Shown: positions 37,525-40,499 of the stretch, in pieces
Layout: each line of letters opens with the position of its first letter
Position numbering within the stretch: the stretch's first letter is position 1
Assembly: GCA_017397825.1 (NCBI GenBank)
Contig: JAFQHT010000148.1
Coordinates: 1-45,959, forward strand
From: Bacillota bacterium
GTDB taxonomy: Bacteria > Bacillota > Clostridia > Peptostreptococcales > Anaerovoracaceae
Direction: 5' to 3'
DNA length: 45,959 bases
The notes under the pieces: model-generated
Told to the model about the DNA's origin: nothing
The model's input: the letters and a program-made list of their open reading frames with translations, nothing else
Database searches by the model: none
Translations under genes and position numbers: made by a program

Positions 37525-37545
37525 ATTTAAAGAGAGGTGAGCATA

Positions 37546-38544
37546 GTGAGTAAAGATCTGATTCCTCAGGCGGAACAGTTTGACGAAATTATTTCTATCA
37601 TTGACAATGCACGCAGCCGTGCACTGAAAGCAGTCAATGCTGAATTAATTCAGATGTATTGGGAGATTGGTAAATATCTTTCCAAGCTTTGCGCTGAAGC
37701 TGAATATGGCGACAAAGTAATAGATGACGTTGCTTCTTTTATTGCAAAATCAAATCCCGGTATCAAAGGATTTAACCGGCGTGGACTATACCGCATGAAA
37801 CAATTCTACGAAACATATAAGGATGATGACTTTGTGTCACCACTGGTGACACAAATCAGCTGGACTAATCATCTGCTTATTATGTCCGGTTCCAAGTCTA
37901 CGGAAGAAAGACATTTTTATATGTCGTTATGTGCCAGAGAAAAATACTCGAAGCGTGAACTTGAACGTCAAATGGATAGTGCCTACTACGAGCGCTATAT
38001 GCTTTCCTCCCAAAAACTTATGCCAGAATCAGTTCCACAGGATATACGGAAAAGTATTCTGGATACATATGTGCTGGAATTCCTTGACTTGCCGGAAATG
38101 TCATCCGAAAAAAATATCAGGAAAGCAATCATTAATAATTTAAAGCAATTTATTCTTGAATTTGGTAAAGACTTTACTTTTATCGGCGAAGAGTATCGCA
38201 TTCAAGTCGGTGGAGAAGATTTTTATATTGATCTGCTTTTTTATAACCGGGCTTTGTCCTGTTTGGTACCGGTGGAATTAAAAATCGGAAAATTCAAGCC
38301 TGAACATATCGGTCAGATTAACTTCTACCTTGAAGCTCTTGACAGAGATGTAAAAAAACCTGAAGAAAACCCGAGTGTAGGTGTGATTCTATGTGCAGGG
38401 AAAAATGATACCATAGTTGAATATGCGTTAAGTCGGACAATGTCTCCCACCATGGTTTCTGACTATACCTTATGCCTGCCTGATAAAGAATTGCTGCAGA
38501 GCAAACTACGTGAACTGGCAGATATTGCCTTAGGAAACAGTTAA
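37546..38544 (+). CDS. YhcG-like PDDEXK nuclease (DUF1016)
   Basis: A 332-residue DUF1016/YhcG-family protein. The N-terminal helical domain (about 1-150) has AELIQMYWEIGKYLSK and YRMKQFYETYK...ISWTNHLLIM; the C-terminal PD-(D/E)XK nuclease domain has FTFIGEEYRIQVGGEDFYIDLLFYNRALSCLVPVELKIGKF, with catalytic D of FYIDLLFY and E-x-K of VELKIGKF, then GQINFYLEALD. Relatives occur with restriction-modification, toxin-antitoxin and mobile elements. Here it stands alone. It starts at a GTG eight bases after GAGG. The gene is visibly more AT-rich than its neighbours, consistent with horizontal acquisition. A 25-base inverted repeat lies in the coding sequence at 37831-37855. Confidence 0.88.
   Translation: MSKDLIPQAEQFDEIISIIDNARSRALKAVNAELIQMYWEIGKYLSKLCAEAEYGDKVIDDVASFIAKSNPGIKGFNRRGLYRMKQFYETYKDDDFVSPLVTQISWTNHLLIMSGSKSTEERHFYMSLCAREKYSKRELERQMDSAYYERYMLSSQKLMPESVPQDIRKSILDTYVLEFLDLPEMSSEKNIRKAIINNLKQFILEFGKDFTFIGEEYRIQVGGEDFYIDLLFYNRALSCLVPVELKIGKFKPEHIGQINFYLEALDRDVKKPEENPSVGVILCAGKNDTIVEYALSRTMSPTMVSDYTLCLPDKELLQSKLRELADIALGNS
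37831..37855. repeat. Perfect inverted repeat inside the yhcG-like gene
   Basis: TTTGTGTCACC and GGTGACACAAA flank ACT, giving 11-bp arms. It encodes part of FVSPLVTQ, so the coding constraint may explain it; alternatively it is a recognition site or an RNA hairpin. Confidence 0.6.
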
Positions 38545-38639: not shown

Positions 38640-39116
38640 ATGTTCAGAAAATTAGCAAAACAGAATAAATTAATCTCTGAAGAAGCATGTATTGAATTGT
38701 TAAAGACTCAGAAAAGAGGCGTTTTGTCAGTATTAGGTGATGATGATTATCCATACGGAATGCCTCTGAATCATTTTTATGACGAAGAGTCCGGCAAGAT
38801 TTATTTCCACAGCGGCAATTACGGCCACAGAAAAGATGCCGTAAACAAACACGACAAGGTGTCTTTCTGCGTCATCAGTGATCCGCAGCCTGTGGAAGGT
38901 TTCTGGGGAATGGACGTTCAGAGCGTAATCGTATTCGGCAGAATGAAAATCATTACTGACCTTGAAATGGTCAAAGACATTTCCCGCAAACTCTGCTATA
39001 AATTCACCAGCGACGAAAAGTGGATTGAAGAAGAAATCGAAGCAGATGCCAAGGCAACTATCCTTCTTGAACTTACACCTGAGCACATGTGCGGCAAATT
39101 CGTCAACGAATCCTAA
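38640..39116 (+). CDS. Pyridoxamine 5'-phosphate oxidase-family flavoprotein (NimA-like)
   Basis: A 158-residue split-barrel FMN-binding protein of the NimA/PNPOx-like family. Features: KQNKLISEEACIELLKTQKRGVLSVLGDDDYPYGMPLNHFYDEESGKIYFHS, then GHRKDAVNKHDKVSFCVISDP. Family members bind FMN or heme; some reduce nitroimidazoles, but the native substrate is usually unknown. Resistance should not be inferred. GAAAGGAG lies about seven bases before the ATG. It is 21 bases upstream of the B3/B4 gene, probably one transcript. Confidence 0.85.
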   Translation: MFRKLAKQNKLISEEACIELLKTQKRGVLSVLGDDDYPYGMPLNHFYDEESGKIYFHSGNYGHRKDAVNKHDKVSFCVISDPQPVEGFWGMDVQSVIVFGRMKIITDLEMVKDISRKLCYKFTSDEKWIEEEIEADAKATILLELTPEHMCGKFVNES

Positions 39117-39137: not shown

Positions 39138-39821
39138 ATGATTGAATTCAGAATTGACAGCAGCCTGACAGCCCTGGGAATTGACAGCATTGTAATCGCA
39201 ATTGCAAAAAATGTGGATCCCACTGCTCCTCTGAGCGAATCTTTCCTTAAAAAACAGAAAGAAATGGAAGGCCGGGCACTGGAATGTGACATAAATGATG
39301 TTATGAACCACCCTGTAATTCAGGGATATACCGACATGCTCAAAAGTGCAGGCCGCAGCATGAAGAAAAACCCTCCGACCGTCCCTGCCCTTATCCGCAA
39401 CATTCAGCACCGTGGTTCAATCCCGCATATCAACAGTGTTATCGATATTTACAATGTGGAATCTCTGCAGTCCATGCTGGCCATCGGCGGCCACGACCTG
39501 GACAAAATCACCGATTACATTGAGTTCACCGTGAACAAAGAAGAAGGTGTTTTCCTGCCGATTTTATCCACAGAAAAGCATGTGGCTGAAACTGACTATG
39601 TTTACCGTGATGCCAAGGGCATCCTGGCATGGCTGGATGTCCGCGACGGAGAAAACTACAAGTTTGATGACAGCACAAAAAACGCGGTTTTTGTCATTCA
39701 GGGCAATTCCAACACCTCCGTTGAATACCGTCTCGAGGCTCTGAAACACATCGGAGAAGATCTGGCTGAATGTATGCCTGGTGTGGAATTTGAGACATTT
39801 GTGCTTACAGCGATGCCATAA
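39138..39821 (+). CDS. B3/B4 (PheT-like) tRNA-binding domain protein
   Basis: A 227-residue stand-alone protein with the B3/B4 domain found in the phenylalanyl-tRNA synthetase beta chain. Key stretch: PPTVPALIRNIQHRGSIPHINSVIDIYNVESLQSMLAIGGHDLDKI, followed by VYRDAKGILAWLDVRDGENYKF and a C-terminal TSVEYRLEALKHIGEDL. In PheRS, B3/B4 edits mischarged Tyr-tRNA, so a trans-editing role is possible but unproven for such free-standing forms. AAGGAG lies seven bases before the ATG. It follows the flavoprotein gene and ends at a terminator. Confidence 0.85.
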   Translation: MIEFRIDSSLTALGIDSIVIAIAKNVDPTAPLSESFLKKQKEMEGRALECDINDVMNHPVIQGYTDMLKSAGRSMKKNPPTVPALIRNIQHRGSIPHINSVIDIYNVESLQSMLAIGGHDLDKITDYIEFTVNKEEGVFLPILSTEKHVAETDYVYRDAKGILAWLDVRDGENYKFDDSTKNAVFVIQGNSNTSVEYRLEALKHIGEDLAECMPGVEFETFVLTAMP

Positions 39822-39843
39822 CAGATGTGAAATATACATCCAC

Positions 39844-39872
39844 GCAGCGTAGGTTGTCCTGCGCTGCTTTTT
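39844..39872 (+). terminator. Intrinsic terminator
   Basis: GCAGCGTAGG (39844-39853) pairs with CCTGCGCTGC (39858-39867; one G-U) around TTGT, followed by TTTTTG. Confidence 0.8.
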
Positions 39873-39911
39873 GTTTTATGATTATGTCATCAGACAGAAG
39901 GAGGTTTAAAA

Positions 39912-40499
39912 ATGGACAATTATGTAACAGGCTCCGTCATCAGGTGCCTTCGTGAAAATAAAAAAATGACTCAGGCTGAACTGGCCGCAAAACTTGATGT
40001 AAGCCCCAAGACAGTGTCAAAGTGGGAAACCGCAAAGGGTCTGCCGGACATTTCTCTCCTTGACACGCTGGCTGCTGCCCTTGATGTTTCTGTTATGGAG
40101 CTTATGAGCGGCAATACCATAGTCAACCGCAATGTTTCTGCCAACATGATGCGCTCACAGATATACGTCTGTCCTGTCTGCGGCAATATAATACACACCA
40201 TGGGCGAAGCTGCAATAAGCTGCTGTGGGGTTTCCCTTCCGCCTCTTGAGGCAGAAGAACCGGATGTTGACCACGTGATTACCATCGAGGCAGTGGAAGA
40301 TGAGAAGTTCATCACCGTAAACCACCAGATGACCAAGCATCATTACATATCGTTTATTGCCTATGTTACAGGAGACAAATTCCAGATGGTGAAACTCTAC
40401 CCTGAAGGCAATGCCGAATGCCGTTTCCGGTTCAGAGGCGCAGGTTTTCTGTACATATACTGCAACCGCCACGGACTCATGCGTATAAAAGTCAGATAA
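39912..40499 (+). CDS. XRE-family HTH fused to desulfoferrodoxin (superoxide-reductase) domains
   Basis: The 195-residue protein has three parts. Residues 1-65 are an XRE helix-turn-helix (LRENKKMTQAELAAKLDVSPKTVSKWE). Residues 85-106 resemble the desulforedoxin-type rubredoxin-like Fe site (CPVCG...SCCG; Cys 87, 90, 104, 105). Residues 118-195 match the superoxide-reductase iron domain: His 121 (DHVITIE), His 138 (NHQM), His 144 (HHYISF), Cys 184 and His 187 (YCNRHGLM), aligning with the full His4-Cys ligand set of Dfx center II. This suggests a transcription factor that senses superoxide, peroxide or iron, or a bifunctional regulator and scavenger. AGGAGG lies seven bases before the ATG. 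Monocistronic with a terminator. Confidence 0.85.
   Translation: MDNYVTGSVIRCLRENKKMTQAELAAKLDVSPKTVSKWETAKGLPDISLLDTLAAALDVSVMELMSGNTIVNRNVSANMMRSQIYVCPVCGNIIHTMGEAAISCCGVSLPPLEAEEPDVDHVITIEAVEDEKFITVNHQMTKHHYISFIAYVTGDKFQMVKLYPEGNAECRFRFRGAGFLYIYCNRHGLMRIKVR

Follow-up and report, generated by a model that had tools for sequence, protein, structure and literature searches.

The fusion gene at positions 39,912 to 40,499 of the window, that is, of the whole stretch of 45,959 nucleotides analysed here, belongs to a known architecture, the HTH-Dx-SOR class catalogued in 2011 (SORGOdb, PMC3116461), for which we can now predict a conserved operator, a promoter geometry and candidate targets that appear to be new. 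The conservation of the predicted operator leaves autoregulation of the fusion gene well supported, and we give an even chance to the fuller reading, in which the protein would be an autoregulatory one-component transcription factor whose metal sites sense an oxidant or iron; its signal, its metal and the sign of regulation are what we infer. The gene and the parts of its product are the following.

39912 to 40499, plus strand: HTH-Dx-SOR fusion gene, 195 aa, assigned by family models and fold
39898 to 39904, plus strand: ribosome binding site AAGGAGG, read in the sequence
39930 to 40109, plus strand: XRE/Cro-CI type helix-turn-helix (HTH), residues 7 to 66
40155 to 40229, plus strand: desulforedoxin-like site, residues 82 to 106, with C87, C90, C104 and C105
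40263 to 40493, plus strand: SOR centre II fold, residues 118 to 194, with ligands H121, H138, H144, C184 and H187

The first-pass annotation had proposed that an XRE HTH, a Cys4 site like that of desulforedoxin and all the ligands of centre II occur together in one protein, and this was confirmed by family models, fold and alignment. The N-terminus is a Cro/CI-type HTH (HTH_3 match at 3.4e-14, with an agreeing fold) in which K33, S36, K37, W38, E39, T40, P45 and D46 were invariant across 64 aligned sequences, and it stands ahead of a Dx-SOR module, as the class requires. The match to Desulfoferrod_N lies below the cut-off of that model and the TIGR00320 score reached 50.4 bits against a cut-off of 146.9; all four His and the single Cys of centre II are present. 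Compared with Dx-SOR proteins (desulfoferrodoxin, 2Fe-SOR; Desulfoarculus baarsii 2ji1 and Desulfovibrio 1dfx), the fusion adds an HTH, has Val119-Asp120 where SORs have Glu-Lys ahead of the first centre II His, and has 13 rather than 15 residues between its Cys pairs. It differs from XRE/Cro-CI repressors (P22 c2, SinR, 434 repressor) in its metal-site C-terminal domain and in having an operator known from sequence alone. HppE, like the fusion, joins an XRE-like HTH to an iron-binding domain, and its enzyme domain is of the cupin type, unlike the SOR fold.

SORGOdb sets apart 19 'HTH-Dx-SOR' proteins with the same domain order (HTH, desulforedoxin-like Cys4, SOR centre II), so that the architecture itself is no different, and the accessible part of that account gave no function, operator or regulon for them (PMC3116461). 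No paper on the function of HTH-Dx-SOR fusions was found in the open-access literature, and the accessible parts of four further articles (PMC5050335, PMC3828012, PMC6459899, PMC8546684) held nothing on an HTH-SOR fusion. TrtA of Treponema denticola is likewise an XRE protein tied to the oxygen response of an anaerobe; it was considered as a relative and rejected, being 104 aa long and devoid of a SOR domain in the accessible part of its description (PMC12724145).

Ligand retention was followed in an alignment of 166 distinct full-length fusions (174 before eight duplicates were merged) and 22 standalone Dx-SORs, the latter a chosen subset of those found; five frames that were partial or resembled fusions (L121, L174, L175, L178, L179) were kept out of the standalone set and the partial L127 out of both. 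On the tree, a branch with an SH-aLRT of 99 splits the fusions from the SORs. Percentages over the 166 lean to close kin, because one source of the set was the best 80 of 555 relatives, and an even sample of the class, 196 genomes in all, is therefore the fairer measure; there, 43 genomes had a fusion-type match, of which 38 were counted as full-length and five, with a frame shorter than 190 aa, were not. The first three Cys of the desulforedoxin-like site were kept in 166 of 166 fusions, and the fourth was Cys in 138 and His in 28. Within centre II, H121 was retained in 151 fusions, H138 in 166, H144 in 160, C184 in 161 and H187 in 125, position 187 being Asp in 37. All five ligands occurred together in 115 of the 166, with some lost in 51, and in 21 of the 38 full-length fusions of the even sample, with loss in 17. 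The expectation that related fusions have often lost these ligands was thus borne out, but the complete set is not special to the window protein and is, among the sequences aligned, the commonest state.

These counts bear on the main rival reading, that of a zinc site kept for structure and a centre II in decay. The SOR fold would then be vestigial, its Cys4 site a structural zinc knuckle and its centre II without functional iron, and the regulator would answer something else, such as a small molecule or a partner protein, or merely set its own level. A Cys site that is universal next to a centre II that decays repeatedly is what such a reading would predict, and it also accommodates a clade of 28 rows (e.g., L039, L050, L056) in which the fourth Cys has become His and H187 has become Asp. 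We nonetheless consider it unlikely, since H121, H138, H144 and C184 were invariant in one alignment of 112 rows that included the window protein three times, and the retention of five ligands in most fusions is hardly expected of a dead site. The Cys3His/Asp187 state has one origin on the tree, both metal sites having changed on one branch. The replacement of Cys105 by His together with His187 by Asp was considered as covariation and rejected, because the coupled swap arose once and hence cannot count as independent support for a contact between the metal sites. The deepest centre II losses fall in a second fusion subfamily, and the resulting series, from full ligands to almost none, forms a ready set of natural variants.

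Catalysis is the other function that the fold brings to mind. An E-K pair precedes the first centre II His in 22 of 22 standalone SORs, and the Lys, which is Asp in the window fusion, was kept in 8 of 166 fusions and replaced in 158, so that superoxide reduction by the window protein is unlikely on alignment grounds. Work by Lombard in 2001 reportedly assigned roles in SOR catalysis to Glu47 and Lys48, and one natural SOR without the Glu is said to work still. That the Lys is gone where the iron site is conserved suggests that the metal was retained while the reaction was abandoned. The reading as a working SOR, with an HTH by which it regulates its own production, would have the five ligands in its favor, together with the 17 of 38 full-length-fusion genomes of the class sample in which no standalone SOR was detected. 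We hold this to be very unlikely in view of the replaced Lys, of the frequent ligand loss and of an occurrence that is independent of SOR: SOR-type matches, some of them weak, were present in 21 of 38 fusion genomes and 69 of 158 others (Fisher p 0.21). Besides, the source genome carries an ordinary enzyme of its own.

1498 to 1884 of L001, contig C103 of the source genome, minus strand: ordinary standalone Dx-SOR, 128 aa, with E-K-H and all ligands intact

The evidence for autoregulation comes from the DNA upstream of the fusion genes, where a palindromic operator, TCTACGnAGCGTAGGTTG, recurs as a 13-bp CTACG-NNN-CGTAG core followed by a GTTG tail. After one of the 166 loci was dropped for having less than 150 nt upstream, the operator was found at a score above 8 in 153 of 165 fusion loci and in 0 of 165 after shuffling. 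Redundancy does not explain this result, because 27 of 30 representatives below 60% identity have the operator and a profile built only from rows of at least 50% identity recovered it in 24 of 42 distant rows (1 of 210 when shuffled). Moreover, among fusion genes of a phylum sample held outside the profile (nine of ten further matches, G523 with its 106-aa frame being left out), the operator was present in seven of nine at scores of 19.4 to 27.1, and 50 shuffles per gene gave top scores of 5.4 to 15.0. The window has the following predicted elements.

39839 to 39856, plus strand: predicted operator TCCACGCAGCGTAGGTTG, core CYACG-NNN-CGTAG, profile score 27.1
39854 to 39859, plus strand: predicted -35 box TTGTCC, its TTG being the end of the operator
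39877 to 39882, plus strand: predicted -10 box TATGAT, after a 17-nt spacer

The best -10 box (at least 4 of 6 matches) stood exactly 17 nt on at 137 of the 153 loci, as against 17 of 153 when shuffled, and the center of the palindrome would lie at about -43 of the predicted promoter if transcription starts 7 nt past the -10 box. The second half of the -35 box (positions 22 to 24) was unconserved across the fusion operators. The first-pass annotation had taken the XRE domain to be DNA-binding, which the conserved operator makes plausible. A hairpin-like stretch, GCAGCG...CGCTGC followed by TTTTT (39844 to 39872, plus strand), overlaps the predicted operator and promoter and may also act as a terminator for the gene upstream.

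In our preferred reading of an autoregulatory sensor, a dimer of the fusion's HTH would bind the palindrome that ends in the -35 TTG of its own promoter, both sites, Cys4 and the iron site of centre II, would bind metal and act as the sensor, and the way the dimer sits on the DNA would change once the ferrous site is oxidised or gives up its iron. Activation of the own promoter seems slightly better than an even bet over repression, because the same spacing appears at unrelated promoters and conservation does not extend to the second half of the -35 box; repression by blocking the -35 box is possible. Lambda CI at PRM is a class II activator with a comparable promoter arrangement. Some ligand-losing fusions still lie behind the operator (e.g., L171), and this, along with the loss of centre II ligands in 17 of 38 fusions of the class sample, rules out centre II as a sensor common to every member.

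Genome G391 holds two diverged fusion copies (L342, L343), with an operator at one and none within 400 nt of the other. At 12 fusion loci no operator lies near the gene; at seven of them it stands further upstream on the same strand, heading genes that lead into the fusion: a GIY-YIG-like gene alone, with a DUF2087 gene or with DUF6530 and AAA-ATPase-like genes, or a similar-looking flavoprotein gene. At L158, L160 and L266, GIY-YIG-like, DUF6530 and AAA-like genes lead into the fusion with the operator at their head, and at two further such fusion loci, L137 and L142 (G232, G370), the operator precedes a GIY-YIG-like gene. A conserved neighborhood was also tried as a guide to function and rejected, since no family recurs beside the fusion gene; the largest neighbor cluster, read as an ABC ATPase, was present on both strands at 19 of 166 loci in a survey that covered more than 1.5 kb upstream at 128 loci and downstream at 109. 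The window itself has the following neighbors.

39138 to 39821, plus strand: B3/4-domain protein, directly ahead of the fusion gene
38640 to 39116, plus strand: PPOX-fold flavin protein, with a resemblance to the NimABCDEF family (109 bits, far under the model's cut-off of 260) that is no basis for a claim of drug resistance
37537 to 38544, plus strand: DUF1016/YhcG PDDEXK nuclease protein, PADLOC candidate PDC-S02 (E 1.4e-125)

In the source genome, which is 82% complete, the window site was the only operator with fewer than three mismatches, and no convincing target besides the fusion gene itself was found. Against TCTACGNNNCGTAGGTTG, only the window site had at most one mismatch and 13 others had three, as compared with 33 for the reversed-pattern control; a shorter pattern with two mismatches allowed gave 105 matches against 473 for its reversed control and was informative only in that the window site alone had a single mismatch. 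By profile score, a site of 18.5 in C27 has no convincing gene behind it and a site of 17.6 in C63 precedes another XRE gene. Across 197 genomes of the family, 34 sites with at most one mismatch were found, 21 of them ahead of a fusion gene by coordinates. The other 13 did not exceed the reversed-pattern control of 20, and such meaning as they have comes from position and homologues: two lie ahead of other XRE genes and one ahead of a further gene, three are inside ORFs, and seven precede candidate targets, namely GIY-YIG-like genes (G164, G071, G195), FMN-reductase-type genes (G195, G108) and amide-hydrolase-like genes (G091, G068).

The FMN-reductase-type gene (PF03358) had the operator in six of six close homologues, 57 to 150 nt before the start, and in none of three weaker ones. 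Four of these six genomes carry a full fusion and G059 a C-terminal piece with a stop; in G049, the flavoprotein operator is present and a full fusion was not found. For the GIY-YIG-like gene, the operator was present in four of five close homologues, all five in fusion genomes, and in 0 of 23 weaker ones, its label being a weak one (I-TevI E 0.42; SegE_GIY-YIG E 0.04; PADLOC homing endonuclease model 1e-5). The amide-hydrolase-like candidate, whose name is a reading of the sequence with no match in Pfam or NCBIfam, had the site at 3 of 11 loci, two of them in one genome. In the class sample, a strict pattern gave nine sites in 7 of 196 genomes, with three in the control; it is insensitive, since most of the 38 fusion genomes were missed. 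Six of the nine are ahead of a fusion or GIY-YIG-like gene and three are in G312 and G218, where a full-length fusion was not found. The two sites of G312 (L281, L283) precede two genes that resemble each other. Taking together 24 sites before non-fusion genes (21 candidate targets and three other XRE genes), a -10 box stood exactly 17 nt on in 20, with 2.1 expected, and a box with at least 4 of 6 matches occurred within 16 to 18 nt at all of them.

The candidate targets also bear on whether iron availability, rather than oxidation, is sensed, with Fe(II) occupancy of centre II setting DNA binding. His4Cys ligands without the Lys would suit the sensing of metal occupancy, and a CX2CX2CX7C motif read in the sequence of the flavoprotein target looks Fe-S binding. 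On the other hand, among the genes examined behind the sites outside G312 and G218, none could be recognised as serving iron uptake, and we regard an iron-availability sensor as quite unlikely. Control of SOR by the fusion was rejected: the operator was found at 0 of 20 SOR loci of 1.6 to 6.5 kb (best score 11.1), and the two genes occur independently. The same holds within 6.5 kb around the standalone Dx-SOR of the source genome (L336), where the operator was absent and the best score was 8.7. Known superoxide defence would thus lie outside the predicted regulon.

Strict gut anaerobes depend on sensing oxygen and what it gives rise to, and few oxygen or oxidant sensors other than PerR are, to our knowledge, known in Clostridia. 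Full-length fusions were present in 38 of the 196 evenly drawn genomes of the class, and a bolder proposal, which we put forward tentatively and at somewhat less than an even chance, is that, in a regulator widespread among Clostridia, sensing falls to a SOR iron centre stripped of its catalytic lysine; this regulator would read superoxide or oxygen directly and drive a small non-SOR regulon (itself, the FMN-reductase-type flavoprotein and the GIY-YIG-like protein) whose promoters share a single fixed geometry. The predicted operator, promoter geometry and candidate targets make the DNA binding and the signal of the family directly testable in vitro.

Similar sites occur at other XRE genes, so that cross-talk is possible; among 18 such genes, a chosen subset of those in the family genomes, a site scored at least 14 in four and at least 19 in none. 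The layout of operator and promoter may be common to such XRE genes, with the operator letters apparently particular to the fusion family. Different palindromes, AACCG-N-CGGTT among them, stand at several other XRE genes (L346 to L363), positioned alike with respect to a TTG -35 box and a -10 box 17 nt on, which suggests that the operator letters of such genes could be read off genome by genome.
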